From Haloarchaeobius iranensis (GTDB taxonomy: Archaea > Halobacteriota > Halobacteria > Halobacteriales > Natrialbaceae), in NCBI RefSeq assembly GCF_900103505.1, contig NZ_FNIA01000014.1:1-64000 (forward strand): DNA of 64,000 bases. The letters are read 5' to 3'. The notes beneath the pieces were generated by a model. It saw nothing but the letters and a program-made list of their open reading frames with translations. It did no database searches and was not told the DNA's origin. The translations under genes were made by a program, and so were the position numbers. Positions 2,294 through 57,290 of this stretch are shown here, in pieces; position 1 is the stretch's first letter, and every line of letters starts with the position of its first letter.

Positions 2294-2320
2294 CGAAGCC
2301 GCAACAAAGCAGTATCACGA

Positions 2321-4282: not shown

Positions 4283-4333
4283 CTATACACTCGACAGTTT
4301 AACATGGAACCAATTAAATTCCATCTCGGATAG

Positions 4334-6173: not shown

Positions 6174-6268
6174 CTTTCTGGTCCCTTAGTATCCCTTAGT
6201 ATGATTCGTAGTTGTATCTGGCACAATCAGTCTCTCTTTGACCAATCTCAATCGAAGTAGTTTACACG

Positions 6269-7198: not shown

Positions 7199-7259
7199 CA
7201 GCAAATCCCATCCATTCTATCAGTATTAATCTATTGACTAGATGTATGATAGTTGGAAT

Positions 7260-7628: not shown

Positions 7629-7649
7629 GGCTACGCGCCTCGCGCGCTG

Positions 7650-7660
7650 ATATATATCGA
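7650..7660. promoter_or_regulatory. Symmetric TATA box
   Basis: GATATATATC is its own reverse complement. It sits about 25 nt before the minus-strand nuclease start (7628) and about 28 nt before a plus-strand ATG at 7688, so it could drive both directions. Confidence 0.55.
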
Positions 7661-7687
7661 CTCCTCTCGTCTGAGCGCGGCGCGGTC

Positions 7688-7849
7688 ATGGGCGAGGTCG
7701 CGCCGGTCGAAGACCGGGGCGACCGGCGTATGACCTACGAGTACGGGACGGGGTGTTGCAACTGCAACACGCTCGCGCGCCCGTGCAGTCATGCGATTAC
7801 CTCCGCGACCTGTTGCACCTCGTCGCGGTACTTCCCGTCGTCCGTGTAG
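7688..7849 (+). CDS. Possible small Cys-rich protein
   Basis: A 53-codon frame starting ATG at the right distance from the symmetric TATA. It encodes a short peptide with clustered cysteines and histidine (CCNCN, PCSH, TCC), which could bind zinc. Its 3' end overlaps the end of the ATPase gene on the other strand by about 60 nt, so the Cys content may partly be a by-product. Low confidence. Confidence 0.3.
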   Translation: MGEVAPVEDRGDRRMTYEYGTGCCNCNTLARPCSHAITSATCCTSSRYFPSSV

Positions 7850-8988
7850 CGGTCGTACCGGCGTTTACAGGTAGAGTGGTCCCACGGGGTCGCTCCCGCC
7901 AGTTTTCGCCATGCAACAGGCTCCTCGCTGTCCCACTTCTCAGGCTCCTCCCGGGCGGTGACGATGTTGTACATCGCGACCGCCTCCATCGTGTCCTCGA
8001 AGTCTGCCGACGAGTCGATGTCGTCGGCCCTCGAATCCTCCCAGGACCACTTCGTCGGTTCCTTGTCGTTGTACGTGAGGTCCGTCGGTGGAATCCCTTG
8101 AATCGGGTCTCCGAGTGGGTTACGCGCGGAGCCGTTCTTGATGGAGTCGAATACCTGCGCTTCCTTCACGTCGATTTTCTTCACGATGGTCCCCAGCTCC
8201 CGAACCAGGGGCGCGACGCTGTTCGGGTCGTGTCCGATGACGATAATCGAGCCGCCGTACTTCCGGATTTTGAACAGCAGCGGTCCCATCTTCGTCCGCA
8301 TCGTGTAACCCTGCTCACCGACGCCGGAGCCAGCCGAAGATACCTCGTCCCAGACGAACAGCTTCGGGCGTGGGTTCCCCGCGAGCACGTCACCATCCTG
8401 CTTCAGCCACTCGGTCAGCTCACCGTAGCTTCCGAGCCAGCCGTCCCGAACCCGGCCCTTGTCATCGACCCACTCGTCCGTCTCTTCGAGTGTCTTGATG
8501 TTCGACGCCAGCAGCGAGTCGTCGGGCTGTCGCTCCTGCCACAGCTGGGCGAGCAGTAGCGCGAAGTTCGTCTTTCCGGCCCCCGGCGGGGCGAAGATGT
8601 AGATGATGGGTGCGGGACCGCGCATCAGCCCGCGAAGCCGGTCCATCTCCTTGATACCCGAGACGTCCGCTTTCTGGCTCGGGTCGCCAGGGAAGCTTTT
8701 GAGCGTGCTCATGTCCCCGTGCTCGAACGCCTCGGTGAACCGTTCGGTCCCAGCGACTCGGAGCAGCTGCCGATGTTCGTCGAGGTCTTTCGCCTGCCCC
8801 GGCGCGAGGTCCGGACGATTCCACTCTTCGGGCTCGTACATCTCGGTGCGAATCGAGAGCGCACGGGCAATCCGGTCGTCCTGGACGTGGGGCGCGTGGT
8901 GATGTACCCGGTCGTTCTGGCGGCGAGTGTTGCCGTCGCGCCACTCGATTGCCCCACCTGCGGTGAACAGCTCTTGCTGGTCGGTCAT
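7789..8988 (-). CDS. VP8-like viral P-loop ATPase
   Basis: A 399-residue protein with Walker A 'FAPPGAGKTNFA' (~132-143) and Walker B-like 'KLFVWDEVSS' (~209-218), followed by 'SIIVIGHD', typical of a RecA/AAA-fold NTPase. Known: pleolipoviruses encode one ATPase downstream of the spike and ORF6/ORF7 genes, often called VP8; its role may be in assembly or genome handling. The C-terminal ~80 residues include a conserved-looking 'DHSTCKRRYDRY' that might be a DNA-binding helix. The start overlaps the preceding gene by 4 nt, consistent with translational coupling. Confidence 0.82.
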   Translation of the reverse strand: MTDQQELFTAGGAIEWRDGNTRRQNDRVHHHAPHVQDDRIARALSIRTEMYEPEEWNRPDLAPGQAKDLDEHRQLLRVAGTERFTEAFEHGDMSTLKSFPGDPSQKADVSGIKEMDRLRGLMRGPAPIIYIFAPPGAGKTNFALLLAQLWQERQPDDSLLASNIKTLEETDEWVDDKGRVRDGWLGSYGELTEWLKQDGDVLAGNPRPKLFVWDEVSSAGSGVGEQGYTMRTKMGPLLFKIRKYGGSIIVIGHDPNSVAPLVRELGTIVKKIDVKEAQVFDSIKNGSARNPLGDPIQGIPPTDLTYNDKEPTKWSWEDSRADDIDSSADFEDTMEAVAMYNIVTAREEPEKWDSEEPVAWRKLAGATPWDHSTCKRRYDRYTDDGKYRDEVQQVAEVIA

Positions 8989-43304: not shown

Positions 43305-43835
43305 TCACCCCTGCAGGCTCTGACGGATGTACCAGCGGTTCGACCAGAGCTGGTAGGTGACGAGCAGGGCGAAAACTGCGAGCGACCCGCTGGTCCACAG
43401 CATCGGGTCGACCGCGGAGACGACCGGGAAGTCGACGAGCGACCAGAGCACCAGGGTCAGCGATGCGACGCCGAGGCTCCGGTACACCTCGCTCCAGGTG
43501 ACCCCGTGGCTCGTCACGACCTCCATGTACTTGTCCACGTCCCGAGCGTGGTCGCTCGGGTTGACCTCCCGCGCATCGCGGTCGTAGTCCACGACGCCCA
43601 GTTCCTCCAACTTCGGCAGGTGCGTCTGGTGCAGCGAGTTGTAGACGCTCTCGCGGGCGGGACGGGGCGGCGGCGACTCCCCCGTCTCCCGTGCCGCGAT
43701 CTCCTGCGAGAGCTCGTGCAGTGTCATCGCCTCGCCGGTCGACTCGACCGTGAGGTGTCTGATGGTCTCCCGTCGCCTACTGTTCGCCAGAATCTCGTAT
43801 ATCGTCTCCTCCGATAGTGTATCTGTGTTGAACAT
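43305..43835 (-). CDS. DUF7344-type winged-helix regulator with membrane anchor (paralog)
   Basis: A 176-residue paralog of the 42415-42984 protein: winged helix in the first ~95 residues ('IYEILANSRRRETIRHL', 'SVYNSLHQTHLPKLEELGVVDYD'), then two membrane helices (~121-138, ~145-163) and a short polar tail. First regulator upstream of the SipW locus and divergent from it across a 414-bp region. Probably senses membrane or surface state and acts on nearby promoters; inference from position. Confidence 0.75.
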   Translation of the reverse strand: MFNTDTLSEETIYEILANSRRRETIRHLTVESTGEAMTLHELSQEIAARETGESPPPRPARESVYNSLHQTHLPKLEELGVVDYDRDAREVNPSDHARDVDKYMEVVTSHGVTWSEVYRSLGVASLTLVLWSLVDFPVVSAVDPMLWTSGSLAVFALLVTYQLWSNRWYIRQSLQG

Positions 43836-44249
43836 CTCTCCCCCCTCCCCAGGGTCTGCTATTCGCAGAAAGGGTGGGGAGGACCGTCACCATGAGGAGC
43901 ATACGGGACCGGTATGCGACACCTGTACTGCTGGAGGTTCTGCGAACGGCACTACTTGTGACTCGTTACCACCTGCTTCGGGAGGATAGGACACACAGGT
44001 GCAGTCGGTCGATATTGGGCATATACTCTCCGACGAGTCGACCCAGTGACAGGCGGTCGTCACGAGTCCCAGGGGGGCGATGCTCGTCGACCGAGCTCTC
44101 GACCAGCCGTATCGAGCCGTTCGAGGCCACGTTCGAGGCTCAATTCCCGGATTGAACGGTGACGTGGCGACGGATAACTACCCACGTGCACGAGAGACAT
44201 ACTTTCCGTCCGAGCGACCCGTCCACTGACGGCGTTCGGGAGGAAAACC
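43836..44249. promoter_or_regulatory. Divergent control region of the SipW locus
   Basis: About 414 bp without a convincing gene. It carries the promoters of the DUF7344 regulator (minus) and of the first SipW-dependent gene (plus), including the conserved element at 44159-44181 and a GGGAGG ribosome-binding site at about 44239-44244. Confidence 0.5.
44159..44181 (+). promoter_or_regulatory. Conserved upstream element, copy 1
   Basis: The 23 bases here are identical to 46182-46204, and both copies end exactly 68 bases before the start codon of a SipW-dependent gene. Core text: GTGACGTGGCGACGGATAAC. The GATAAC part may act as the TATA; the rest may be an activator site. Confidence 0.65.
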
Positions 44250-46025
44250 ATGACAGACGACGACTTCACGGGTCTGTCCCGGCGACGCATCCTCGGTGGC
44301 CTCGGTGCCATCGGGGCCGCGTCGGTCGGGGCCGGACTCGGCACGAGCGCGTACTTCAGCGACACGGAATCGTTCGAGAACAGCGTCCTCACGGCGGGAC
44401 AGCTCAACCTGCTCGTCGACTACTACTCCTGGTGGGACCAGGGGATAGCGGGGTCGGGACAGGTGACCGGCACCGCGGACGGCCCGTCGGTCAGCGCGGA
44501 GCTGACCGACGTGAAGCCCGGCGACAACGGGTTGCTCGCGTTCTGTCCGCAGAGCGACGACAACCCGGCATACCTCTGGCTGTGTGGCGACCTCGTCGCG
44601 GACGACGAGAACACCATCACCGAACCGGAGGGCGAGGTCGACAGCACGCCCAACGACGGTGAACTCGCCGAGGCCATCGAGCTGACAGTCAGCTACTGCC
44701 AGCTCGACGACGATATCGAGGACGCCGACGACGACGACCCGAGCAACGACGGCTTCGAGCCGAGCGACATCGAGAGTTCGACCGAGGTCTGGACCGGCAC
44801 GCTGGCCGACTTCCTCACGACTATCGGCGGGGGCGTCCCGCTCGACGGCGAAGGCGAAGAGCCGGCCGAAGGTGGCTTCTTCGCGCCCGGCGACCAGAAC
44901 TGCTACGCCGGCACCGGCTCGGAGGAGACGAACCCCTGTCTCTGCATCGACTGGGAGGTGCCGACCGAGGTCGGCAACGAGATCCAGACCGACTCCGTCG
45001 AGTTCGACCTCACGTTCCACGCCCAGCAGTGCCGGCACACCGACGGGACCACGAACCCGTGCGCGGGCGACGTGGAGTGCGAACCCTGCGACCTGCCGAC
45101 CGACCCGTCCGGGTCCGACCTCATCAGCGTCAACAGCGTCGACGCCTCGGCCTTCCCGGACGTCTCGGCGTTCCTCAACGTCGATACGACGGCGGGGAAC
45201 AACGGCGAGCTGGTCGACGACATCACTGTCTGTGAGAACGGGCTGGCACAGGACGAGACGGTCAACTTCACCGAGGACTCGGAGGCCGACATCGTGTTCG
45301 TCTTCGACGACACCGGGAGCATGGGCGGCGAGATTAGCGGCGTCCAGAGCGCGCTCGGCGACTTCATCGACAACCTCGTCACTGACGCCGGAATCGACGC
45401 CCGTTTCGCGCTTATCTCGTTCAAAGACACCGTCGAGCTCGACCAGGACTGGACGTCTGACCAGACAACTATCCAGAACGCGGTCAACGGACTTTCGGCC
45501 AGCGGTGGGAACGATTCTCGGGAAGACGACTTCGACGGCATCGGCGTTGCAACCCGGGACATCGCCGCTGACTCCGGGGGCTCACTCTCCAGTTACCGGT
45601 CAGGAGCACAGAAGGTTATCATCGACATCACCGACGCACCGGCACAGACTGACGACGAAACCGCAGAGTTTAATGACCCGACCAGGACCGACTACGATAT
45701 ATCGGACGTCGGAGACTTGCTCTCGGGGTACACCTACATCGCTGTGTCGCCCGGCGACCTTGATGGTATCTTCGGGTTCGACACGAGCGACGGGGACAAG
45801 CAGGTGCTGGCGACCAACGTCGGCGGCACCCACATCGACATCAACAGCGACGAGATATCTACCATCCTGACCGACGAGATCAGTGGCCAGCTCGCGACGA
45901 CCTACTCCGTGAGCTACACTAGCTGCGACGACGACTCTGACCCGAGCGACCGGACGATCCTCTTCGAGGTCGTGGACCCGGAGGAAGGCACGCTGTACAA
46001 GACGGCGACGTTCACCGTTCCCTAA
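44250..46025 (+). CDS. SipW-dependent TasA-like protein with C-terminal vWA domain
   Basis: A 591-residue exported protein. Residues 1-45 combine a twin-arginine motif (LSRRRILGG), a hydrophobic core and the SipW-type cleavage context 'GTSAYFSDTESF'. A TasA/camelysin-like beta domain follows (~45-270), marked by 'DVKPGDNG', 'DNPAYLWLCG' and 'CLCIDWEVP... QTDSVEFDLTF'. After a Cys-rich linker comes a von Willebrand A domain (~345-520) with metal site DDTGS in 'FVFDDTGSMGG'. No C-terminal anchor. vWA suggests metal-dependent adhesion or protein binding at the cell surface. Preceded by a GGGAGG ribosome-binding site. Sequence is unbroken. Confidence 0.85.
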   Translation: MTDDDFTGLSRRRILGGLGAIGAASVGAGLGTSAYFSDTESFENSVLTAGQLNLLVDYYSWWDQGIAGSGQVTGTADGPSVSAELTDVKPGDNGLLAFCPQSDDNPAYLWLCGDLVADDENTITEPEGEVDSTPNDGELAEAIELTVSYCQLDDDIEDADDDDPSNDGFEPSDIESSTEVWTGTLADFLTTIGGGVPLDGEGEEPAEGGFFAPGDQNCYAGTGSEETNPCLCIDWEVPTEVGNEIQTDSVEFDLTFHAQQCRHTDGTTNPCAGDVECEPCDLPTDPSGSDLISVNSVDASAFPDVSAFLNVDTTAGNNGELVDDITVCENGLAQDETVNFTEDSEADIVFVFDDTGSMGGEISGVQSALGDFIDNLVTDAGIDARFALISFKDTVELDQDWTSDQTTIQNAVNGLSASGGNDSREDDFDGIGVATRDIAADSGGSLSSYRSGAQKVIIDITDAPAQTDDETAEFNDPTRTDYDISDVGDLLSGYTYIAVSPGDLDGIFGFDTSDGDKQVLATNVGGTHIDINSDEISTILTDEISGQLATTYSVSYTSCDDDSDPSDRTILFEVVDPEEGTLYKTATFTVP

Positions 46026-46181
46026 TCGGGGAGCCACCGACACCCCTCCCGGTTCTCGGTGCGTCACGGTGGCCACTCTCACAATTCCGTAGGCAGTTGG
46101 TATCGTCGGAACAACCACCGCTTTCGCATCAGTATCCAGATGTTCGACATCGCATCGGACCCTCAATTCCGGCGTTGAAGC

Positions 46182-46204
46182 GTGACGTGGCGACGGATAA
46201 CTAC
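46182..46204 (+). promoter_or_regulatory. Conserved upstream element, copy 2
   Basis: Identical over 23 bases to 44159-44181 and at the same distance from the start codon of the next paralog (46273). The bases just upstream are also similar (CAATTCC... TTGAA), while those downstream are not, pointing to selection on this element. Confidence 0.65.
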
Positions 46205-46272
46205 GGGGCTACCCCGGGATGTACTCGACAACCGGACGCCCCGTATGACGCGGGGGTTCGGGGGGACTCAGT

Positions 46273-47118
46273 ATGTCAGACAAGAATACACTCGGACTGT
46301 CGCGGCGGCGCGTACTCGGTGGACTCGGCGCAATCGGCGTCGCGTCCGCCGGTGCCGGGCTCGGCACCAGCGCCTACTTCAGCGACTCGGAATCGTTCGT
46401 GAACAACATCCTCGAAGCCGGCGAGCTGAACCTCATCGTCGACTGGGCGACCGAGGCCCACCAGGGGAGCTACGGGTACAGCTTCGCGGAGGGTGAAGTC
46501 GACGGCGGCGGGGACGGCGAGACGGACTACTCTTACGAAATCAGCGACGTCAAGCCCGGTGACAGCGGCACCATCGTCCTCTGCCCGAAGGTCGTCGACA
46601 ACCCGGCCTGGCTCTGGGTCGGCAGTGCTGACGGTGCGACCGATTACGAGAACGGGCTTACGGAGCCCGAGAGCGATGTCGACGGCTCCGGCGGCGACCC
46701 CGGAGCAGGCAACGGTGAACTCTCCGAGAACATCCAGGTCACCGTCTCGTACGCCTCCGGGTACAGCACGGAGGACGAAGACGAGGACGGCGAGCCGGAC
46801 AATATCGTCTGCGAGGACAAGGAAGAGCTCGACAATCCTGACGACTACACGCTCGCGGACCTGATGAGCGAGCTCGAGATGGGCTGGCTCATCGACGCCG
46901 ACCGGAGCACGCCCGAGATCGACCCGTATCCGGCGTCGGAAGATGCCGAAACGCAGGAGGGGCCCTGCCTCTGTATCGAGTGGGAGGTGCCGACGGACGT
47001 CGGTAACGTGATTCAGACCGACTCCGTCGAGTTCGCCTTCAGCTTCGAGGCGATGCAGCAGCGGCACAACCCCGACCCGTCGAACCCGTTCAACGACACG
47101 ACGACCAACAGCTCGTAG
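46273..47118 (+). CDS. SipW-dependent TasA-like protein, single domain
   Basis: A 281-residue paralog made of the shared parts only: Tat motif LSRRRVLGG, hydrophobic core, 'GTSAYFSDSESF' and the TasA-like domain with 'DVKPGDSG', 'DNPAWLWVG', 'PCLCIEWEVPTDVGN' and 'QTDSVEFAFSFEAMQQRHN'. No extra module and no anchor. By analogy to bacterial TasA and the archaeal AbpA pilins, this is the best candidate for the major fibre subunit; analogy only. It has its own copy of the upstream element. Confidence 0.85.
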   Translation: MSDKNTLGLSRRRVLGGLGAIGVASAGAGLGTSAYFSDSESFVNNILEAGELNLIVDWATEAHQGSYGYSFAEGEVDGGGDGETDYSYEISDVKPGDSGTIVLCPKVVDNPAWLWVGSADGATDYENGLTEPESDVDGSGGDPGAGNGELSENIQVTVSYASGYSTEDEDEDGEPDNIVCEDKEELDNPDDYTLADLMSELEMGWLIDADRSTPEIDPYPASEDAETQEGPCLCIEWEVPTDVGNVIQTDSVEFAFSFEAMQQRHNPDPSNPFNDTTTNSS

Positions 47119-47175
47119 AGCAACGAGCACTCAGCGACGGCCCACACAGGTTTGCGGCCCCGAATCGGCCGCTTT

Positions 47176-47196
47176 CCGACGGTTCGACTCCGTCGG
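47176..47196 (+). ncRNA. Leader hairpin upstream of the third SipW-dependent gene
   Basis: CCGACGG (47176-47182) pairs with CCGTCGG (47190-47196) around loop TTCGACT. A second small hairpin (CCCC-GGA-GGGG, about 47206-47216) covers the ribosome-binding site. The same two-hairpin layout with compensating changes is found before the next gene. Confidence 0.6.
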
Positions 47197-47222
47197 TGGG
47201 TCTTCCCCGGAGGGGGAGCACA

Positions 47223-49133
47223 ATGAACCAGGATATCGAACTAACGCGGCGGAAGATACTGGCCGGTATCGGCGCGGCGGGGGTCGCCAGCGTCGGGGCC
47301 GGGCTCGGCACCAGCGCGTACTTCAGCGACACGGAATCGTTCGGCGCGAACACCATCGCGGCGGGGGAGCTCGACCTCAAGGTCGACTGGGAGGAGCACT
47401 ACAACTACCCGCAGCTCCTCGGCTTCGACGACCCGACGACCGGCCTCGAGTACGAGCCGGTGACGGACCTCGCGGACATCCCGGAGGGGACCGACGAGTC
47501 CGCGTGGAAGCCGTTCCCGCCGGGGACGAGCGACGCGGACGACACGCCCGAACCACTAATCTACGTCTACGACGGCAACGACGCCGAGTCGACTGACGTG
47601 GACCTCTACATGGACAACACGGCCATCGAGGCGTTCCCGGACGACGACAACGACGGGACCGGGGAGTTCCCGATCGACGCGATGCTGCCCGATCTCAGCC
47701 CGTGCGAGGTGCTCGCCGATGTCGGCGGCGAGGAGGGCGGCGACCTCGGGAAGTACACGACAGCCGAGGGCGGCGAGGTGCTCGGCCGGACCGACAACGA
47801 CGACACCCGGCTCGACGACGAGAGCCCGGCACCGCTCATCAACATGGAGGACGTGAAGCCCGGCGACTTCGGCGAGGTCACCTTCAGCACCCACCTCTGT
47901 GACAACCCGGGCTACCTCTGGATGCAGATGCCCGGCGGGCTGACCCTCGACGAGGGCGGCGTGACGGACCCCGAGAGCGAGAGCGACGAGGAGGAGGACG
48001 GAACCGTCGAGCTCCCGGACGAAGTCCAGACCGCCATCTGGTACGACAACAACTGCGACAACCTCGTCACGAGAGACGAGAAGCTCGACATCATGGCGGT
48101 CGCCGACACGTCGGACAGCATCGAGGGCAGCCTCTCCGAGGAGGGCTCCGAACTCGACACGCTCCGTGACGCGGCGAACGTCTTCGTGGACTTCCTGCCG
48201 GAGGACCAGGTCGGCGGCGAGGACCGGGTCAGAGCCGGCCTCATGACGATGAACGGTCCCGGCGACTCGGGCGGCGAGGGTGTCAGGGACCAGCCCGCGC
48301 TCCGGGCCGGTATCGGTTCGCTATCGCAGTTCGACACCGACGGGGACGGGAACGCGGACATCGGGGACTTTCTCCCCGAGGCGGGGCAGGGAGGCACGCC
48401 GGTTCCCTACGCGCTCGACCTCGCCCGGAAGGTCCTCCAGGACCAGGGCCGGAGCGACGCCCGCCAGGTAATCCTGCTCGTCACCGACGGACTGCCGGAC
48501 TACGTCGGTACCGGGGACTCGATACTCCCCTACGTCGTCGAGGACCCTGACACCGGTGCGACCTACACGGCGGACGAGTACGACGGCAGTATCAACGGCA
48601 GCACCACCTGTACCGAGCTCGACGAGACCGGCGACGTCGCGAACGACATCAAGGGAGAGGGTATCGACATCCTCGGCGTCGGTATCGCGCTCGGCGACAC
48701 CGACTGTGACGAGGGCAGTGGGAACATCGCCGGTGACACCTTCTTGATGAACCGGGTCGTCGGACTCGAACCCAGCCCGGGTACCGCCGAACCGAACCAG
48801 TTCTTCGACGTGGAGAACTACGACGACCTGGAGGCCGTCGCCGAGGACGTCGGCGCCCAGCTCGTCGGCGGCGAGGGCACCGGCGACCAGCTCATCTTCC
48901 AGGGCACCCTCAGAGAGGCCGAAAGCGTGCTCACTGCTGGCGACGGCGTCGCGCTCGACGCGGACCGCGACGCGGAGGGACGGCAGTGCTTCCAGCCGTC
49001 GAACACGCACTGCTTCGGCTTCTCGTGGTGGCTCCCGCCGGATGTCGGGAACCACGTCCAGACCGACTCCGCGGCGTTCGACATCGCGTTCTACAGCGAA
49101 CAGTGCCGCCACAACGACGGCGAGACGGCCTGA
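47223..49133 (+). CDS. SipW-dependent TasA-like protein with nested vWA domain
   Basis: A 636-residue paralog: Tat motif LTRRKILAG, 'GTSAYFSDTESF' and TasA-like N-terminal strands with 'DVKPGDFG' (~220) and 'DNPGYLWMQMPGG'. Then a vWA-like domain (~290-540) with canonical metal site DTSDS in 'MAVADTSDSIEGS' and 'VILLVTDGLPDY'. The conserved closing segment of the TasA-like domain ('WWLPPDVGN... QTDSAAFDIAFYSEQCRHN') comes at the very C-terminus, after the vWA. So the vWA is inserted inside the domain, unlike the first paralog where it is appended. Start ATG 47223, behind a purine-rich ribosome-binding site. Confidence 0.82.
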   Translation: MNQDIELTRRKILAGIGAAGVASVGAGLGTSAYFSDTESFGANTIAAGELDLKVDWEEHYNYPQLLGFDDPTTGLEYEPVTDLADIPEGTDESAWKPFPPGTSDADDTPEPLIYVYDGNDAESTDVDLYMDNTAIEAFPDDDNDGTGEFPIDAMLPDLSPCEVLADVGGEEGGDLGKYTTAEGGEVLGRTDNDDTRLDDESPAPLINMEDVKPGDFGEVTFSTHLCDNPGYLWMQMPGGLTLDEGGVTDPESESDEEEDGTVELPDEVQTAIWYDNNCDNLVTRDEKLDIMAVADTSDSIEGSLSEEGSELDTLRDAANVFVDFLPEDQVGGEDRVRAGLMTMNGPGDSGGEGVRDQPALRAGIGSLSQFDTDGDGNADIGDFLPEAGQGGTPVPYALDLARKVLQDQGRSDARQVILLVTDGLPDYVGTGDSILPYVVEDPDTGATYTADEYDGSINGSTTCTELDETGDVANDIKGEGIDILGVGIALGDTDCDEGSGNIAGDTFLMNRVVGLEPSPGTAEPNQFFDVENYDDLEAVAEDVGAQLVGGEGTGDQLIFQGTLREAESVLTAGDGVALDADRDAEGRQCFQPSNTHCFGFSWWLPPDVGNHVQTDSAAFDIAFYSEQCRHNDGETA

Positions 49134-49183
49134 GCGCCGACTTTCCTCCTCACCCACGTCGGTCAGGACCCCCAGTCGGGGGT

Positions 49184-49204
49184 TCGTCGGTTCGACTCCG
49201 ACGG
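49184..49204 (+). ncRNA. Leader hairpin upstream of the fourth SipW-dependent gene
   Basis: TCGTCGG (49184-49190) pairs with CCGACGG (49198-49204), one G-U pair included, around the same loop TTCGACT. Relative to 47176-47196 the third stem pair is flipped from A-T to T-A, so pairing is kept. A second hairpin (CCTC-GAGA-GAGG, about 49213-49224) again overlaps the ribosome-binding site. Confidence 0.6.
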
Positions 49205-49232
49205 TGGGCGTTCCTCGAGAGAGGTGTCTCAG

Positions 49233-51086
49233 ATGAAGAAAAACGGTATCGAACTATCGCGGCGGACGATACTGGTCGGTGCCGCCACTGTCGGGGTGGC
49301 GGGTGCCGGCGCTGGTATCGGGACGAGCGCACTGTTCTCGGACAACGAGGGGTTCGTGGGGAACGAGCTCCTCGCCGGACAGCTGGACCTCGTGGTCGAC
49401 TACTTCACCGACCACGACCAGGGCTCGTTCGACGCGGGAGCCGGCCAGGGCGAGGTGAACGGCGACGGCGAAGCCGAGTACACGTACGCCGCCGAGGACG
49501 TCAAACCGGGCGACAGCGGGACGCTGGTCTTCTGCCCGAAGCTCGTCGACAACGACGGCTGGCTCTGGGTCGGCAGTGACGGCGTCGTCGACTACGAGAA
49601 CGGCCGGACCGAGCCCGAGGCCGACGTGGACCCGTCGGGCGGTGGGAGCGCTGGCGACCCGAACGATGGTGCCGGCGCCGGCGAGCTGAGCGACGTGGTC
49701 GAGGTCGACCTCGCGTACTGCGCGGACGTCAGCATCGACGGTGACGCGGTCCAGATCGGCACCGTCGTCCGCGAGTTCGACAACCCGGACGGCTACAGCC
49801 TCGCCGACCTGGCGAAGGACATGGAAAGCGGGGTCCTGCTGGACGGCGACGGCACCGGCTCGACGGCGGACCCCTACCCGGGCTCGCCTGACGGCGACAC
49901 CCAGACCGGGCCCTGTCTCTGCGTCGAGTGGACCGTCCCGACGGACGTCGGAAACGAGATACAGACCGATGCGGTCGCGTTCGATTTCACCTTCGCGGCG
50001 GTCCAGGCCAGACACAACGGCGAGCCGGCGAACCCGTTCGTCGACATCATGGTCGGCGACGGCTTCGACTACGGAACCATCCAGGCCGCCGTAGACGCTG
50101 CGAGCGCCGGCGACGTCGTCGGCGTCGCGGATGGGAGCTACAGCGAATCGGTCACCGTCGGCACCGAGGGCCTCACCCTGACGTCGGCACGGGGCGCGAT
50201 GCCCACCATCGAGGGACCGGGCACGGGTTCGTCGGCGACCGTCACCGTCACGGCCGACGGCGTCACCGTCGACGGGTTCGAGGTGACCAACCCCGGCGGG
50301 CTGCTCGGCGTGAAGGTCGGCGATGGAATCGACGACGCGACGGTCTGCAACAACCTCATCAGGGACGTCGGGCCGACGGGCAGCCTCGGCGTGACGGGCA
50401 TCATCGTCGGCCAGGGCGACCACCGGAACGTCAGCATCGTCGGGAACACCGTCGAGGACCTGTTCCAGGACGACGACGGGAGCTTCGCGACCCTGAACGG
50501 GATACTGTTCGACGCGGACAACAGCAGCCCGGGCACAATTACCGACGTCCGGGTCGAGCGCAACGTGCTCCAGGACCTCGAGAGCACGACCGCGCCACTT
50601 GGTATCGTCGTCCAGCACGACGTGGCGTCGATGGACATCGCGGACAACGTCATCTCCGGGCTGACCGCCGACAACTCGCTCGGCCCCGGCAGCTACACCA
50701 CGTTCGCACAGGGCCTCAGCGTCGACTCGACCGCCATCACTGGCATGCGGTTCGTCGGCAACTTCGTCGAGGACGTCGTCAGCGAGGACGGTTTCTTCGG
50801 CGAGGCCATCAAGCTGGAGCCCGGCGCCGCGGTCGACGGCATCACCGTCGCCGGGAACGATCTGCTGTCGGCTATCGGGCTCAACAACGCCAACGGTGGC
50901 AACCCGACCGTCACTGCCGGGAACAACTACTGGGGCGACGCGGGCGGCCCGCTGGTCATCGTGAACAACGACGACGACGGCGACGTCCCCACCAGCGGTG
51001 CCGGGAACGTCGACCTCGGGACCGTGACCGAGAGTGCTGTGACCGAGAACGTCGACTTCGACCCGTCGTCCGGACCGACCGCGTAG
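49233..51086 (+). CDS. SipW-dependent TasA-like protein with C-terminal beta-helix
   Basis: A 617-residue paralog: Tat motif LSRRTILVG, 'GTSALFSDNEGF' and the TasA-like domain (~40-270) with 'DVKPGDSG', 'WLWVG' and 'CLCVEWTVPTDVGN... QTDAVAFDFTF'. From ~275 to ~610 it is a right-handed parallel beta-helix of the pectate-lyase/NosD kind: 'DYGTIQAAVDAASAGDVVGVADGSY' and regular 'VTVDGFEVTN', 'VSIVGNTV', 'MDIADNVI' and 'ITVAGNDL' rungs. Such helices bind or cleave polysaccharides. A fibre-linked polysaccharide-binding or degrading protein is inferred. GTG 49224 is an alternative start. Confidence 0.83.
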   Translation: MKKNGIELSRRTILVGAATVGVAGAGAGIGTSALFSDNEGFVGNELLAGQLDLVVDYFTDHDQGSFDAGAGQGEVNGDGEAEYTYAAEDVKPGDSGTLVFCPKLVDNDGWLWVGSDGVVDYENGRTEPEADVDPSGGGSAGDPNDGAGAGELSDVVEVDLAYCADVSIDGDAVQIGTVVREFDNPDGYSLADLAKDMESGVLLDGDGTGSTADPYPGSPDGDTQTGPCLCVEWTVPTDVGNEIQTDAVAFDFTFAAVQARHNGEPANPFVDIMVGDGFDYGTIQAAVDAASAGDVVGVADGSYSESVTVGTEGLTLTSARGAMPTIEGPGTGSSATVTVTADGVTVDGFEVTNPGGLLGVKVGDGIDDATVCNNLIRDVGPTGSLGVTGIIVGQGDHRNVSIVGNTVEDLFQDDDGSFATLNGILFDADNSSPGTITDVRVERNVLQDLESTTAPLGIVVQHDVASMDIADNVISGLTADNSLGPGSYTTFAQGLSVDSTAITGMRFVGNFVEDVVSEDGFFGEAIKLEPGAAVDGITVAGNDLLSAIGLNNANGGNPTVTAGNNYWGDAGGPLVIVNNDDDGDVPTSGAGNVDLGTVTESAVTENVDFDPSSGPTA

Positions 51087-51117
51087 CCGTCCTCCCCCGA
51101 CGACTACCCCCTTCTCC

Positions 51118-51765
51118 TCAGTCGGACGCGACGGTCGTCGCGGTCCGGTGCTCCTGCAGAATGCGCTCGAAGTACGGCGTCATGACCTGCTGGGCCTGCT
51201 CCCACTCCCTGGTGTCGTGCAGCTCGACGCCGAGCAGGTACCGTGCGGGCTCGGGCCCGTAGCCGGACTGCCCGTAGCGAGGCTTGTCGGGGTAGTCCGG
51301 TTCCTGGAGCGCGGCACGGTACTCGTGGAGCTGTGCGCGCTTCATCGGCGTCCAGTAATCGCCGCCTACCTTGTGCCGCCGCCACGCGACGGTGCTCTGC
51401 TCGGCGTACCGGGCGTCCATGTCGACCAGCGACGCCCGACGGGCGAACGCCGCCCGCACGTCGCTCCAGTCGGCCCTGGCGAGGGTCGCGTCGTCGATCT
51501 CGCCGTCCACCATACAGGCACGCTCCACCTCGTCCTTGGCCCAGAGCGCATCGACGTACGCGACGGCCGCCCGTCGCGCGGTCTCCTCCGAGACGTGCTG
51601 GAACTGTACCGTGTCGACCGCGGCGAAGGCCTCGACCGCTTGCTCGCGTTCGCGGTCGTCGTGGTGCTTGAAGCCGAGACAGAGCTGCCTCGCCAGCCGT
51701 CGTGCGTTCGTCCGGACCTCGTTCGGTTCTACTCCGTCGTCCGCTCGCTCGTGGGGGGTCGCCAT
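51118..51765 (-). CDS. Uncharacterised cytoplasmic protein inside the SipW locus
   Basis: A 215-residue soluble, largely helical protein on the opposite strand to the locus, with no signal or membrane segment. Features: 'RLARQLCLGFKHHDDREREQAVEAF' near the N-terminus and an aromatic patch 'KPRYGQSGYGPEPARYLLG' near the C-terminus. No family recognised. Its own AT-rich promoter lies at about 51790-51810 (TTAAGTATTTTAATC on the minus strand). It may be unrelated to the secretion genes or a regulator of them. Confidence 0.65.
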   Translation of the reverse strand: MATPHERADDGVEPNEVRTNARRLARQLCLGFKHHDDREREQAVEAFAAVDTVQFQHVSEETARRAAVAYVDALWAKDEVERACMVDGEIDDATLARADWSDVRAAFARRASLVDMDARYAEQSTVAWRRHKVGGDYWTPMKRAQLHEYRAALQEPDYPDKPRYGQSGYGPEPARYLLGVELHDTREWEQAQQVMTPYFERILQEHRTATTVASD

Positions 51766-52284
51766 CCGTCGGCCGAGATATGGCCGTATGATTAAAATAC
51801 TTAATTTTAGCTTCCCAATCGGTCCGTCACGATATAATCCGTCGTTAGATGCTCTTGGGCCGGATTACCACGGTTTCGCGTCGTGCGTTTTCTCGCCCCG
51901 CAATCAGACCAGTCGAGGCGCGACGACGACGGTCGACGGGTCCGGGCCAGCGAGTAGTCCGGGGTGGTTTGGTGAAGCGTACCCGCCCGTCGACGGGGAC
52001 ACCCGACCCTGAGCGTGACGGCGTCGTGTCGCATGGCAACGAACACGGAGCGAGACGAGAAACGTCCGGTTAGCGCGACACAGGAGCCTGGTACTGGATT
52101 CGTATGCGCTCGTTGCTCCCCGGTACGTCGCTCATTCATATCCCCCTACATCTGGTACCTGATAACACGAATGAGCCCGTCCGGTGGGGACCGAACGGGC
52201 AGGGGGGACACCTGTGAATCCAGGTATATCAGACGACGAAAGTCGCACGCGCTGGACAGCACACCTCGCGGAGGGTGAGACGCC
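51766..52284. promoter_or_regulatory. Gene-free control region before the fifth paralog
   Basis: About 520 bp without a credible gene. It contains the minus-strand promoter for 51765, a hairpin at 52175-52200, a TATA (GGTATATC, about 52223-52230) for the plus-strand operon and a ribosome-binding site (GGAGGGTGA) just before GTG 52285. Confidence 0.5.
52175..52200. repeat. Near-perfect hairpin with GGGG loop
   Basis: GCCCGTCCGGT (52175-52185) and ACCGAACGGGC (52190-52200) pair over 11 positions with one mismatch around GGGG. It lies about 23 bp before the TATA of the sipW operon, so it is more likely an operator or an upstream terminator than part of the leader. Confidence 0.5.
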
Positions 52285-53457
52285 GTGAGCCGCGACCGAG
52301 CCTCGTTGAGCCGGCGGCGGCTCCTCGGGAGCGTCGGCACTGTCGGTGCGCTGAGCGGTGTCGCTGGCGTCGGGACGTGGGCACTCTTCGAGGACGGCGA
52401 GACGTTCGCCGCTTCGGTGGATGCCGGCGAGGTCGGCGTGAGCATCGGCTGCGACAGCTGTCCGACCGAGGGCGATAGCGTATCGTTCGGCCTCGACGGG
52501 CTCGAACCCGGCGATGAGAGAATCGACGAAAGTGCCGAGACGTTCACCGTGACTGCCGACGCGAACCCGGTTCGGGTGTGGCTCCGGACGAACTGTCCGG
52601 ACCCGGTCGATCCGCTCGGCGATGCCGTCGAGGTACGGCTGTCCCGAGACCCCGACTGCGATGGAAGCGGGACCACACAGATGTATCCGTCCGAGGACGG
52701 CTCGTGGAGAACACTGAACGAGTTCCGGTCTGACCTCCGTGGCGGACTGCGACTCGACAATCTCGGCGGCGAGCCGTGTCTCGACGGCACGCTCTGCTTG
52801 GACCTCGAGTACAGGCTGCCCGAGGACGCGACGTGGGCCAATGACCTCTCGACCGAGCTGACGTTCGAGGTCGCCGCGGAGCAGTGCCGCCACGTCCCCG
52901 AAGACAGCGTCACGTCGCCGCCGTTTCCGCCCTCCGACTGCCGGGAACTGGACTGCCCCTACTGCGTCGAACTCGGCAAACTCGAGGTCGGCGAGGACGA
53001 CCTGCTCCCCCCGGGTGTCTACGACTTCACCGAGCTCTGTCCGCAGTTCGCCGACGACGGGACGGCTTACAAGCTGGAAGTCCTCGAAGCGACCAACAAG
53101 GAGGACGACGACGGCAGCCAGGAGACGGTCTGTGCCAGAGTCCGGCTGCTGGCCGGGGAGGACGAGGACGCGCTCGAGGAGGCAAACGCACCACCGATCT
53201 GTTCGGTCGCGGTCAAGGGCAGCCAGACAACCGAAACTTACGATGTCGACCCGGCGTCGACCCGCACCCGAGGAGACGTCTGCACGGGGAAACTGGACGA
53301 GGGAACCGAAGCCGGCGGCCTTTCGGCGATCAGCAACATCGTCGTGTCAGTTTGTTCTGAGAACGACACCGGCGACTGTTTCGGGCCACCAGACAGTCCG
53401 GGTGGGTCACCTCGCCAGGACGAAACGAGTGAGCAGCGCGTCGGGGTGAGCGACTGA
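52285..53457 (+). CDS. SipW-dependent protein with Cys-rich C-terminal region
   Basis: A 390-residue paralog starting at GTG 52285: Tat motif LSRRRLLGS, hydrophobic core, diverged cleavage context 'GTWALFEDGETF'. The TasA-like domain is shorter (~40-205) and ends with 'CLDLEYRLPEDATW... ELTFEVAAEQCRHVP'. The C-terminal ~180 residues form a separate Cys-containing domain (~10 Cys, e.g. 'CRELDCPYC', 'PPGVYDFTELCPQF'), perhaps disulfide-stabilised. Directly coupled to sipW (TGATG), so it is probably the most tightly linked substrate, possibly a fibre cap or assembly factor like bacterial TapA. That comparison is inference. Confidence 0.8.
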   Translation: MSRDRASLSRRRLLGSVGTVGALSGVAGVGTWALFEDGETFAASVDAGEVGVSIGCDSCPTEGDSVSFGLDGLEPGDERIDESAETFTVTADANPVRVWLRTNCPDPVDPLGDAVEVRLSRDPDCDGSGTTQMYPSEDGSWRTLNEFRSDLRGGLRLDNLGGEPCLDGTLCLDLEYRLPEDATWANDLSTELTFEVAAEQCRHVPEDSVTSPPFPPSDCRELDCPYCVELGKLEVGEDDLLPPGVYDFTELCPQFADDGTAYKLEVLEATNKEDDDGSQETVCARVRLLAGEDEDALEEANAPPICSVAVKGSQTTETYDVDPASTRTRGDVCTGKLDEGTEAGGLSAISNIVVSVCSENDTGDCFGPPDSPGGSPRQDETSEQRVGVSD

Positions 53458-54614
53458 TGGTGGACAAACGCCGCATCGCACACGCCATCGGGCTACTCGC
53501 GCTGGTCGTGGTCGTCGTTCCGTTCGTCGTCTACGCGTTCCCGTCGGCGGTCGGCGCGGACCACAGCTTCGTCGTGCTCTCGGGCAGCATGGAGCCCGAT
53601 ATCGCCCCCGGCGACGTCGTCATCGTCGACGAAGGGTCGACCGAGGCCATCGAGGAGGGCGACATCATCACGTTCGTCCGCAGCGAGGGTGACAAGCCGG
53701 TGACCCACCGGGTCGTCGGGGTCGAGGAGCGCGGTGACACCACGGTGTTCACGACCAAGGGCGACGCCAACGAGGACGTCGACAGCCAACCGGTGCCCGC
53801 CGGGAACGTCATCGGCGAAGTGAGCGTCACCATCCCGTACATCGGACACGTCATCCAGTTCGCCCAGCGGCCGGTCGGCTTCGTCGCCCTCGTGCTCCTC
53901 CCGCTCGGGCTCCTCGGGCTCTCGGAGGTCTGGACCATCGTCCGGAAGCAGCGCGGCGACGGAGGAGCTGACGGCGCGGGTGACGGGACCGTCGCGACGG
54001 CAGCGACCGCCACCAGCGACCCGACGGTGGCCGATACCAGCACGGACGACGACGGCGAAATCACGCTCACGGCGACGGACCTCACGCTCGCGACGGGTAT
54101 CCTCCTGCTGGTGGCACCGTACACCGTGTGGGTCGCCCTCCAGCTCCGGAACCCCGTGACGTTCACCGCCGCCTTCGCCGCCATCTTCTCGTTCGTCGGC
54201 GTCGCCGGGCTCTGGCTCACCGCGCGGGGCGGCGACGCGGACCAGTCGAGCGGCGCGCCGGACGACGACGACGGCTGGGAAGACGGCGACGTCCTGGAGG
54301 ACAGCGCCGACGCGTTCGACGACGACTGGGCGCTCGATGAGTCCGACGGGACCTTCACGTTCGACGACACGGGCGGTGACGGCTTCGCCGAGGAGTTCGA
54401 CGGTGCGTTCGGTGACGGTACCGAGGCGACAGCCGACGCGGTCGGCGCGCCCACCGACGGGAGCGGACCGACTGCCGGCGTGACCGCGGACGACGCCGGC
54501 GAGGGTGACGCGCCCGGTGACGACGGGTTCTTCGACGACCCGACGCCCGAGAGCGGGTCGACGGGTGCCGACGTGTTCGACGACACGGCCGGCAGTACGG
54601 AGGAGGTGGACTGA
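53457..54614 (+). CDS. sipW: SipW-type signal peptidase I with long acidic tail
   Basis: A 385-residue membrane serine protease. N-terminal helix (~8-28), catalytic Ser in 'VLSGSMEPDI' (~42), His in 'PVTHRVVG' (~82) and Asp region 'GDANEDVD': the Ser-His-(Asp) type of archaeal, ER and SipW peptidases, with no catalytic Lys. Further membrane helices at ~138-158, ~205-222 and ~232-252. The last ~130 residues are an Asp/Gly-rich cytoplasmic or surface tail unusual for the family. It should cleave the SipW-type signals of the surrounding proteins. It is encoded between two substrates. Confidence 0.9.
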   Translation: MVDKRRIAHAIGLLALVVVVVPFVVYAFPSAVGADHSFVVLSGSMEPDIAPGDVVIVDEGSTEAIEEGDIITFVRSEGDKPVTHRVVGVEERGDTTVFTTKGDANEDVDSQPVPAGNVIGEVSVTIPYIGHVIQFAQRPVGFVALVLLPLGLLGLSEVWTIVRKQRGDGGADGAGDGTVATAATATSDPTVADTSTDDDGEITLTATDLTLATGILLLVAPYTVWVALQLRNPVTFTAAFAAIFSFVGVAGLWLTARGGDADQSSGAPDDDDGWEDGDVLEDSADAFDDDWALDESDGTFTFDDTGGDGFAEEFDGAFGDGTEATADAVGAPTDGSGPTAGVTADDAGEGDAPGDDGFFDDPTPESGSTGADVFDDTAGSTEEVD

Positions 54615-54986
54615 ATGGACCGAAACGTTCTCTTCGCACTCGCCTGCACCGCGCTGCTGATCTCGGCCGCGTACCTCGCCGGCTTCGGGACCGTCGCGAC
54701 GTTCACCGACTCGGCGACCGTCAGCGGCAACGTCGCGAGCGCGGAGAACTTCGACGGCTCGTTGACGGTCGTCGACGCCGTGGCGAACGAGCAGTCGACC
54801 GGCGGCGAGGACGACTGCACAGCCGAGCAGGACGCGGGCGGGAACACGAACGACGGCGGTGCCGCGAACGCGCAGGACGGCGGCGGCCTCACGGACTGCG
54901 GCGGCACCGGCGGCAACGGCGGCACCGACGGCGGTCGCTACGTCGCACCCGCGGCCCGGCCACTCACGGTGGGAGGACGGGGATGA
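54615..54986 (+). CDS. Small SipW-type exported protein
   Basis: A 123-residue protein starting right after the sipW stop. The signal is not twin-arginine: 'MDRNVLFALACTALLISAAY' then 'GFGTVATFTDSATVSGN', a SipW-type cleavage context, so it may go through Sec. The mature part is short, Gly/Asn/Asp-rich with two or three Cys ('DDCTAEQDAGG', 'LTDCGGTGGNGG') and low in complexity. No TasA-like core is visible. Possibly an accessory fibre protein. The stop overlaps the next start (ATGA). Confidence 0.75.
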   Translation: MDRNVLFALACTALLISAAYLAGFGTVATFTDSATVSGNVASAENFDGSLTVVDAVANEQSTGGEDDCTAEQDAGGNTNDGGAANAQDGGGLTDCGGTGGNGGTDGGRYVAPAARPLTVGGRG

Positions 54987-55162
54987 ACCCACCGTCCCGA
55001 CGGTCTGACCCCCCACCCAACGACGAGGACGAGACGCAGCGGGGGAGCGTCCCCGTCGTACTGCTCGGGTTGTTGCTCCAGATCGACAAACGAATCGTGG
55101 TGATACTGCTGTGGCTGTTGCTCATCGCCGCGGTGCTGTACGGGCTCCTCGTCGGCGCGTGA
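54983..55162 (+). CDS. Small C-terminally anchored protein ending the locus
   Basis: A 59-residue protein: a polar, Pro/Asp/Glu-rich first half ('NPPSRRSDPPPNDEDETQ') and a hydrophobic second half with one or two helices ('IVVILLWLLLIAAVLYGLL'). The ATGA overlap with the preceding gene supports it as real. It ends one base before the end of the convergent sensor gene. Function unknown; perhaps a membrane partner of the signal peptidase or fibre. Confidence 0.6.
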   Translation: MNPPSRRSDPPPNDEDETQRGSVPVVLLGLLLQIDKRIVVILLWLLLIAAVLYGLLVGA

Positions 55163-55163
55163 C

Positions 55164-57290
55164 TCAGTCGTCGGGGGCGTCGCCGTTGCGGTTCACGTGT
55201 GCCGAGACGACCTTCGAGAGCGACTTCCGGAGGTGACTGTGGAACGTCGAGGAGGCGATCTCCATGGCGTCGGCGATCTCCTCGGCCGTGCTCTCGCGCG
55301 GCCAGTCGAAGTAGCCGGCGTTGTGCGCGGCGACGACGGCCTCCCGCTGCCGGTCGGTCAACTCCTCGATCGGGGCGGTCCGTCCCTCGTCCTCCGCCGC
55401 CGGTGGACGCTCGCGTTTCGACTGCAGGCTCACCGGCCCGACGACGTCATCGAGCGCCTCCGTCAGCTCCCGAACGGCGTTCCCGGTCGCGGTCTCGGCG
55501 ACGAACGTGAGCCGCCCGTCGTGTGCGGTGGCCTCACCGAGGCGTGCGCCCCGGGCGGTCACGACACCGAGTGCGGACGGCCCACGGAGGCGCACTTCGA
55601 CGGTGCCGCGGTTGGGAACCTGTCGAACCCGCTCGACCTCGTCGGCGTCGGCGAACGTGTCGGCGACCGCCTCGAGGTCGTCGCAGTCCTCGACGTCGAC
55701 GTAACACAGCAGTCCGGAGTCCTCGACCGGCACGGTCCCTTCGACGGTGAGCGTACAGTCGTGGGCGTCGCTGACCCGGGCGAGGGGTGACCCCTCGGCC
55801 GGCACCTGGTAGGTGAGTGCGACGAGGCTGTCAGACAGCAGTGTCTCGCGTGTCTCGATGGCGTGCAGCGCCATGCCGACGCTGGCACAGAGCTCCTCGA
55901 GGACTGTCAGCTCGTGGTCGTCGAACGCCTCCTCGCGGTCGCTCTCGACGACGAGCGCACCGTAACCGACGGACGCGAAGTCGATGGGGACCGTCGCGCG
56001 CATCCGGCCGCCGTCCGTCGCCTCGACGGTCGTCTCCGGCACGCTCTCGTCACGGATGGTCGGATGCACGTACCACGGCGTGGTCGCGAGCCGGTTCGTG
56101 ACCCCGTCGAGGAGTTCGGGTCGGGACTGCGCGCGGACGATGCTCGTGAGCACGCTCCGGATGGACTGGTTGATGGCGTCCAGCTCGCGGAGCTCGGTGC
56201 GCTGGCGCTCGAGTTCGTCCTGCCTGCGCTCCAGTTCGGCGAGCCGTCGTTCGCGCTCGGTCACGTCGTGGAGCAGGTACGCGGTGCCGACGGAGCGGCC
56301 GCGACCGTCCTCGACGGGCGAGGCCGAGACCTCGAACTGGCGGTCGTCGACGGTGATGAGCGCGGGCTCGCCACCCGGTTGGGGGCGTTCCGGCAGCAGC
56401 GCCTCGATGGTGACCCCGACGAGGCCGCTCCCGCGGTCCGTCTCGGGCGTCGAGGGCACCGAGAGCACGTCGCGGGCGACCTGGTTGTCGGTGACGATGG
56501 TCCCGTCCCTGTCGGTGATGAGGACGGGGTCGTTGAGCGTCCCCAGCGCGGAGGTGCGGCCGAGCTGGAGGATGGAGGGTGGCCGCTCGAACAGGTCGTG
56601 CTCGAAGACGGCGATGGCGAACGCGAGCCCGGTGATGCTGAACGCGTAGGGCGTCATGTCCAGCCCCTCGTAGATCGCGTAGCCGAGTACCGAGAGCAGG
56701 TTCGCGACGGTGGGCGTCCCGATACCGACGATGAGCACCGCACTCGCCGCGGAGAACGACTGCTCGGAGCGACGGACGGTGTACAGCAACAGGGAGACGC
56801 TGCCGCCGAGCAGCAGGTAGGTGTAGAGCAGGTTGATGCGGTACCACGGCCCCTGCTGCTGGGTGGCGACGTTCACGCCGTCGACGACGCGGAAGCTCCA
56901 GTCCCGCCAGATGAGGGGATGGTACTGGCTCGTCCAGACGAGCACCAGCGTCACCACCGGGACGATGCACAAGCCCGCGACGACGGCGGGGCGCTGGAGC
57001 TCCTCGAACCCGGTGTACTCGGCGAAGAAGAGCAGGACGAACACGGGTGCGAGGACGATACCGAACCACTGGAGCTGCTCGAAGAACAGTCGAAGACCGT
57101 ACTGGTCGGCGGGTGTCAACAACGCGGCGGCGTAGCCGGCGCTCCAGACGCTCGCGACGGCCATCATCCCGGTGAACGGTGTCGCACCGGGGCGGCCACG
57201 GTTTCGCCAGCCCACGACCGCGAGCCACGTCGTCAGGAGCGCGGAGAGTCCGAGCAACGAGACGTGGAACGCCGCAGCCACACCCACCAT
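55164..57290 (-). CDS. Membrane sensor-regulator: 7TM, PAS, GAF and Bat-type HTH
   Basis: A 708-residue one-component regulator. The N-terminal ~230 residues hold seven membrane helices of the histidine-kinase N-terminal 7TM type. A PAS domain (~245-345; 'DPVLITDRDGTIVTDNQ') is followed by a coiled coil (~348-372), a GAF-like domain (~380-490), a Bat-type intermediate domain and a C-terminal HTH ('LTDRQREAVVAAHNAGYFDWPRESTAEEIADAM... STFHSHLRKSL') as in bacterio-opsin activators. There is no kinase domain. Convergent with the SipW operon and ending one base from it; probably regulates that locus or nearby genes. Inference from position. Confidence 0.85.
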   Translation of the reverse strand: MVGVAAAFHVSLLGLSALLTTWLAVVGWRNRGRPGATPFTGMMAVASVWSAGYAAALLTPADQYGLRLFFEQLQWFGIVLAPVFVLLFFAEYTGFEELQRPAVVAGLCIVPVVTLVLVWTSQYHPLIWRDWSFRVVDGVNVATQQQGPWYRINLLYTYLLLGGSVSLLLYTVRRSEQSFSAASAVLIVGIGTPTVANLLSVLGYAIYEGLDMTPYAFSITGLAFAIAVFEHDLFERPPSILQLGRTSALGTLNDPVLITDRDGTIVTDNQVARDVLSVPSTPETDRGSGLVGVTIEALLPERPQPGGEPALITVDDRQFEVSASPVEDGRGRSVGTAYLLHDVTERERRLAELERRQDELERQRTELRELDAINQSIRSVLTSIVRAQSRPELLDGVTNRLATTPWYVHPTIRDESVPETTVEATDGGRMRATVPIDFASVGYGALVVESDREEAFDDHELTVLEELCASVGMALHAIETRETLLSDSLVALTYQVPAEGSPLARVSDAHDCTLTVEGTVPVEDSGLLCYVDVEDCDDLEAVADTFADADEVERVRQVPNRGTVEVRLRGPSALGVVTARGARLGEATAHDGRLTFVAETATGNAVRELTEALDDVVGPVSLQSKRERPPAAEDEGRTAPIEELTDRQREAVVAAHNAGYFDWPRESTAEEIADAMEIASSTFHSHLRKSLSKVVSAHVNRNGDAPDD

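Follow-up and report, generated by a model that had tools for sequence, protein, structure and literature searches.

A TasA-like modular secreted-protein locus of Haloarchaeobius iranensis with tRNA-like leader elements, a probable haloarchaeal fibre system

A modular Tat/SipW locus

The gene cluster described here lies in a 64,000-nt stretch of Haloarchaeobius iranensis contig NZ_FNIA01000014.1 (the window, to which all coordinates refer). Five genes for secreted proteins with a twin-arginine translocation (Tat) plus SipW-type signal stand there on the + strand and adjoin the gene of a SipW-like peptidase, four of the proteins bear differing extra modules, and many haloarchaeal genes of this kind are preceded by a tRNA-like structure that probably marks a site at which tRNA-cutting enzymes split the mRNA. 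The genes are as follows.

44250..46025, + strand: P0001, Tat/SipW signal, TasA-like domain (about residues 37-270), C-terminal vWA domain
46273..47118, + strand: P0002, bare TasA-like subunit of 281 aa, candidate major subunit
47223..49133, + strand: P0003, Tat/SipW signal, TasA-like core, nested vWA (model residues about 283-552)
49233..51086, + strand: P0004, Tat/SipW-type signal, TasA-like domain, C-terminal beta-helix-like (NosD-like) module
51118..51765, - strand: unrelated open reading frame (ORF), 215 aa, between P0004 and P0008; no family match
52285..53457, + strand: P0008, divergent Tat/SipW protein, Q..RH kept, Cys-rich C-terminal part
53457..54614, + strand: P0009, SipW-like archaeal signal peptidase (SGSMEP, THRV), acidic C-terminal tail
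54615..54986, + strand: P0010, small secreted protein with a SipW-like cleavage region by eye; no relevant family match
54983..55162, + strand: P0011, membrane protein of 59 aa

The ORF finder places the starts of P0003 and P0004 at GTGs further upstream; because the leader elements described below stop just 5' of the ATGs at 47223 and 49233, and the Tat motif comes after these, they are the likely starts. Against the SipW-signal model TIGR04088 (cut-off 19), P0001, P0002 and P0003 exceed the cut-off in the protein search, P0008 scores 19.6 in the genome search (above 19) and 16.3 by protein, and P0004 stays under it at 16.7. An alignment of 20 proteins, five encoded in the window and the others in five further genomes (L017-L021), leaves invariant the Tat arginines (RR), the SipW-type G.GT.A.F.D.E block, AG and the Q..RH of the core, and since RR and Q..RH hold in all 20 sequences the shared Tat/SipW core is not a product of chance. 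The first-pass annotation of this DNA had proposed five exported proteins with such a signal and a common core. The genes are real and the invariant residues bear the proposal out, with P0004 under the signal cut-off and P0008 divergent, though retaining the core frame. The markers it listed hold in part: CLC reads CFG in P0003 and CLD in P0008, and DVKPGD is absent from P0008, whereas Q..RH is kept.

The modules are those that had been described, namely a C-terminal vWA in P0001 and a nested one in P0003 (both by Pfam and NCBIfam), none in P0002, a beta-helix-like C-terminus in P0004 (a weak NosD-type match in Pfam/NCBIfam, 1.6e-9, below cut-off) and a Cys-rich part in P0008. The Pfam Peptidase_M73 cut-off is reached by P0003 alone (25.1 vs 22.5), in a match confined to the signal region. 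A peptidase and two small proteins had been said to complete the set; P0009, P0010 and P0011 are present, but the unrelated minus-strand gene at 51118-51765 interrupts it. Judged by eye from its sequence, P0010 looks like a further SipW-type substrate, of Sec type.

Fold of the core and of the nested vWA

Structure models were made for P0002 and P0003 of the five proteins. The AlphaFold2 model of P0002, computed from the 20-sequence alignment, has a predicted local distance difference test (pLDDT) score of 76.7, with residues 1-47 poor. In a blind ranking by VIA-align, TasA entries 5of1, 5of2 and 8aur took ranks 1-3 (Z 8.6, 8.5 and 8.1), with 154 aligned residues at a root-mean-square deviation (rmsd) of 3.8 for 5of1, and the next entry was an unrelated fold at Z 6.6. 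Foldseek likewise returned the TasA fibre 8aur as top PDB match (E 5e-3, probability 0.97), with no match passing 1e-3. By its model, P0002 has a TasA-like fold, which upholds the earlier proposal for this protein; AbpA (7ueg) scored Z 4.8. PDB sequence searches gave chance hits only for P0002 alone and none for P0004.

The P0003 model (pLDDT 63) places the vWA inside the core. In structural comparison this domain came closest to the pilus tip adhesin SpaC (Z 20.2) and to integrin I domains, and Mfa5 of type V pili reached 18.9; a match of this sort is by itself no demonstration of function. As modelled, P0003 carries a pilus-tip-like nested vWA.

Conservation of the locus

Halobellus, Halorubrum, Halapricum and Haloarchaeobius have related loci, and 16 of 41 sampled genomes have a P0002-type match. 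The genes are kept together with one SipW-like peptidase in L017, L019 and L020, so that the linkage to the peptidase put forward in the first-pass annotation is conserved and the genes are not scattered in these relatives. P0008 immediately precedes the peptidase gene, an arrangement repeated in L020, L021 and L022. The simplest-core, P0002-type proteins are encoded by the first gene of the locus in several genera, many homologues bear very large modules, and within the stretches read L021 and L022 have no bare subunit.

These comparisons bear on a reading that we consider possible but rather unlikely, in which the products are non-polymerising secreted matrix or surface-layer-associated proteins with a TasA-like jelly roll, and the vWA and beta-helix modules are independent adhesins or enzymes. 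Fold likeness reveals no function, and the very large modules together with the two stretches that lack a bare subunit would suit such proteins. The position of P0002-type proteins at the opening of the locus in several genera argues against this reading, and a linked SipW peptidase is the TasA arrangement.

A tRNA-like element before internal genes

The leaders of P0003, P0004 and most internal genes of relatives contain a T-arm hairpin of 5-7 bp, seven bases and a second hairpin. The T-arm loop is TTCGACT, rarely TTCGATT, TTCGAAC or TTCAACT, and fits the 7-nt T-loop TTCRANY; the seven bases 3' of the T-arm are often GTGGGTC and form an acceptor stem with a segment that in most cases lies 8-44 nt upstream. 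The second hairpin is of the CCCC-GGGG kind, and its 3' arm contains a G run beside the ATG. True tRNA genes were rejected as the source of the elements, as linkers of mostly 8-44 nt occupy the place of the D and anticodon arms. Work by Hoelzle in 2008 and 2012 is said to have dealt with a Haloferax volcanii t-element located 5' of 5S rRNA. In that organism a tRNA-like t-element directly 5' of 5S rRNA is cut by tRNase Z (PMC4326828), and t-elements are described as substrates for both RNase P and tRNase Z (PMC4326828; PMC3296008). The elements of the window are the following.

47139..47202, + strand: t-element 1; 5' strand 47139-47145 GGCCCAC; T-arm 47177-47195; T-loop TTCGACT 47183-47189; 3' strand 47196-47202 GTGGGTC; tRNase Z cut predicted after about 47202
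47203..47218, + strand: second hairpin before P0003, TTCCCC-GGAG-GGGGAG; 3' arm with Shine-Dalgarno-like G run, beside the start codon
49151..49210, + strand: t-element 2; 5' strand 49151-49157 CACCCAC; T-arm 49185-49203; 3' strand 49204-49210 GTGGGCG
49213..49224, + strand: second hairpin before the P0004 start, CCTC-GAGA-GAGG

Counted with no model, a T-arm lies within 95 nt upstream of 35 of 72 SipW-type genes, whereas of the 186 other ORFs in these loci 1 has one; the count includes partly redundant orthologues from a single genus and some loci that were fetched owing to hits of the search model R1 described below. The distance from T-arm to start is 38-52 nt, with one outlier at 66. The 5' strand of the acceptor stem lies outside R1, and its pairing is specific to each copy: averaged over 104 elements, the best pairing with the element's own upstream reaches 6.04 of 7, whereas shuffled upstreams give 5.35 and swapped ones 5.54; the 20 elements that lack GTGGG score 6.45 with their own upstreams and 5.20 with those of the other class; and in the 70 elements left after removal of similar upstreams, own against permuted pairing gives z 6.9 (0 of 20000 permutations). 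CCCAC is present for 37 of 56 GTGGG elements, where 12.5% is expected, and compensated acceptor pairs include CCGGGTC/GACCCGG, CCAGGTC/GACTTGG, GCGGGAT/ATCCCGC and GTGGGTT/AACCCAC. In the T-stem and hairpin of 15 copies, 9 cells are changed on both sides against 3.2 in shuffles, and the covariation score is reached by 0 of 500 shuffles.

This covariation speaks to the idea that the elements are DNA recombination sites permitting module swaps among subunit genes. T-arms are common integrase targets, the modules vary while the core is kept, and an integrase-type gene adjoins an orphan copy on contig C50 (L023). Neighbouring copies nevertheless differ in stem sequence with pairing retained, and the copies that were read are on the coding strand, with nearly constant spacing to the start codon; we rejected the idea on the compensatory stem changes and regard it as extremely improbable.

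The pre-5S leader of the Haloarchaeobius iranensis genome itself has a 6-bp T-arm, CAACGG(TTCGATT)CCGTTG, the seven bases GTCGGCG and then 5S. From the geometry shared with this leader, a cut in the mRNAs would be expected right before the second hairpin, which begins 0-2 nt past the predicted cut in most copies, and we infer by this analogy that the mRNA leaders are cleaved at their t-elements by tRNase Z and RNase P. An unlikely alternative would make the leaders translational switches, protein- or ligand-binding 5' untranslated regions in which a T-loop-binding protein or the second hairpin gates the ribosome site. The overlap of that hairpin with the G run by the start codon and the fixed distance to the start would agree with a switch, as would the promoter-driven first genes, which also carry a leader hairpin beside the same G run. 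The conserved part, on the other hand, is T-arm plus acceptor stem, the known form of a tRNase Z substrate, and the placement of the hairpin right after the predicted cut likewise favours cleavage.

Distribution of the element

To survey the element we used R1, a covariance model from 15 leader copies that spans T-arm, second hairpin and start codon, so that these features are not independent evidence in its hits. In the 41-genome sample it gave 38 hits of at least 38 bits; by our tally some 29-30 of them stand immediately upstream of core-protein genes, another four or five are at other places in such loci, and four belong to the locus type found on contig C62. At the class level, 104 of 292 haloarchaeal genomes and 38 of 77 genera have a hit at E<=1e-9, and in the phylum-level sample all 14 R1-positive genomes fall in the order of Haloarchaeobius iranensis. 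Sixty outgroup hits were read: the downstream frames are mostly SipW-type core proteins, and the remainder are core proteins with slightly altered signals, Tat proteins within the loci or TafE-like proteins, five of which scored 56-71 bits against a cut-off of 155. For L143 and L170 the downstream frame was wrongly chosen by the ORF picker. Hits under about 28 bits, many of them short partial T-arm matches (model positions 2-20 or 3-19), are not claimed. Although built from mRNA leaders, R1 matches a 5S rRNA gene leader in another genome (G010, 28.2 bits); one hit in G035 is likely tRNA-derived. Rfam at gathering score reported no family in seven loci, and in window 43500-55300 nothing beyond sub-threshold matches. 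The ARAGORN call of a tRNA-Arg at 46344-46424 (- strand) is probably false, lying within the coding sequence for the conserved Tat signal of P0002.

Other copies, promoter-like blocks and neighbours

The tRNA-like elements before most internal genes had escaped the first-pass annotation, as had a second full locus and a separate taf-like locus in the same genome. The second locus, on C49 (L022), encodes three core proteins, two of which have a nested vWA at the matching position; it also holds other related genes and a SipW-like peptidase of its own. Three signal peptidases of the genome pass the archaeal model, on C39 (the P0009 locus), C49 and C62. On C62, TafE-like genes score 79 and 62 bits, under the cut-off of 155, and a gene matching CARDB/DUF1102 precedes the third peptidase; because of the TafE-like genes and the t-element before that gene, we consider this locus taf-like (Tat-fimbria), and it is the nearest in the genome to a known haloarchaeal system, tafi. 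The t-element there (L087, G000:C62:21000-31000) stands about 90 nt before the CARDB/DUF1102 gene, with no evident second hairpin.

That the P0002 cluster is another tafi locus would accord with its haloarchaeal host, its Tat and SipW-type signals and the leader element borne by TafE-like genes elsewhere. P0002, however, reaches 14 bits against the TafA model NF052520 (cut-off 190), and the TafE-like locus on C62 is separate and has its own signal peptidase, which makes this identity very unlikely.

Several further homologues were seen. The orphan SipW-type protein on C50 (G000:C50:100000-112000), the copy beside the integrase-type gene, is possibly mobile. In a homologue at L019:11060-12685 a domain other than vWA is inserted on the N-terminal side of DVKPGD, which makes this a second site of insertion within the core; a similar-looking domain stands C-terminal in L023. 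Homologous reading frames with one in-frame stop, at G022:C3:524533-524817 and G034:C18:7648-8265, are possibly decayed copies.

The first genes of loci in this genus share a promoter-like palindrome block, present twice in the window.

44139..44182, + strand: putative promoter/operator of P0001, palindrome TCAATTCCCGGATTGA plus GTGACGTGGCGACGGATAACTAC
46162..46205, + strand: same putative promoter/operator block before P0002

The block, a palindrome (TCAATTCC..GGATTGA) followed by GTGACGTGGCGACGGATAACTAC, stands before first genes in the window, L021, L023, L096, L097, L109 and L112, and is likely the operator of a shared regulator. Directly downstream of the locus lies a Bat/HTH_10-type regulator with a seven-transmembrane sensor, PAS and GAF domains (55164-57290, - strand); the C49 locus likewise has a downstream gene that reads as a sensor kinase. 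Window positions 1-8000 have a G+C content near 0.50, compared with about 0.59-0.76 elsewhere, and are probably a foreign insert.

Discussion

Sequence or models show the genes, their shared core, the TasA-like fold, the nested vWA, the synteny and the covarying tRNA-like element; promoters, cleavage, polymerisation and adhesion are inferred. In the account that we regard as probable, the locus encodes a TasA-like fibre (or matrix) system of haloarchaea, likely a decorated fibre, whose minor subunits are modular and whose operon mRNA is processed at t-elements. Transcription would start from promoters before P0001 and P0002, and the P0002-P0003-P0004 message would probably be cut at its mini-tRNAs (the t-elements) by tRNase Z and RNase P, giving each downstream gene a separate mRNA headed by a protective hairpin that adjoins the start codon. 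Tat would export folded subunits and P0009 (SipW) would trim their signals; P0002 may then polymerise, most likely via an N-terminal donor strand as TasA does, with P0001, P0003, P0004 and P0008 incorporated as adhesive or capping subunits that bear vWA, beta-helix and Cys-rich modules. More generally, we lean, with somewhat less assurance, towards the view that tRNA-processing enzymes punctuate haloarchaeal surface-fibre mRNAs, a mini-tRNA cut before each internal subunit gene yielding a separate hairpin-capped mRNA with its own dose, and that the t-element regulon extends to the 38 of 77 sampled genera.

Several observations weigh against this account. The P0002 model rests on 20 sequences at pLDDT 77, and against AbpA 7ueg it aligns 144 residues at rmsd 5.1. 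The link to TasA is structural, since the alignment profile finds TasA among PDB sequences at E 0.12, which is no significant sequence-level hit. The circularity of R1 with respect to its own features has been mentioned; in addition, the element is missing from the first genes of loci and from roughly half of the SipW genes overall (many of the element-less genes being first in their loci), roughly one element in three lacks a good 5' strand for the acceptor stem within 60 nt, and leader folding energies are only mildly below those of shuffles (z -1.3 to -2.5).

Were the elements cleaved, each fibre subunit would have its dose determined by tRNA processing, which would be a form of operon control for protein genes. 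To our knowledge such tRNA-based control of protein genes is known only by analogy, from tRNA punctuation in mitochondria. The leader element is also an easy marker by which SipW-dependent fibre genes can be located.

Comparison with known systems

The biofilm fibres of Bacillus subtilis are the TasA-TapA-SipW system (PDB 5of1, 5of2, 8aur; PMC9674648). The present locus shares with it the SipW-type signal, the linked SipW peptidase and, as modelled, the jelly-roll subunit fold; it differs in its haloarchaeal Tat-type signal, its paralogous subunits with nested or appended vWA and beta-helix, its tRNA-like leaders, and in that polymerisation is here a proposal. AbpA of Pyrobaculum (PDB 7ueg) is a TasA-like archaeal filament subunit of bundling pili, and we know of no vWA modules or tRNA-like leaders in these pili. 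P0002 would be a TasA-like archaeal subunit as well, but its model matches AbpA at Z 4.8 only. Tafi are described as thin Tat-exported haloarchaeal filaments (Galeva et al. 2025 iScience 28:111793, cited in PMC12687288); Tat export and haloarchaeal hosts are common to both, and the host genome has a taf-like locus besides, whereas the P0002 locus has other subunits and modules, with P0002 far below the TafA cut-off (14 bits vs 190). Our literature search on haloarchaeal SipW/TasA returned nothing beyond the tafi citation.

SpaC of sortase pili (6m48) and Mfa5 of type V pili (6tnj), among the best matches of the P0003 insert, likewise use a vWA as a pilus-tip module, whereas in P0003 the carrier domain is TasA-like. 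The Haloferax volcanii pre-5S t-element is, like the leaders described here, a tRNA-like element, and the 6-bp T-arm, seven bases and cut recur in the host's own pre-5S leader; the fibre-locus elements differ in being repeated within mRNAs before protein genes and in the hairpin that comes after them at the start codon. In the literature read, t-elements are described only before 5S rRNA, and our search found no tRNA-like elements in archaeal mRNAs, though mRNA t-elements may have been mentioned earlier. Set beside these systems, the Haloarchaeobius iranensis locus, as we read it, joins TasA-like Tat/SipW fibres with pilus-tip-like modules and t-elements in a new way.

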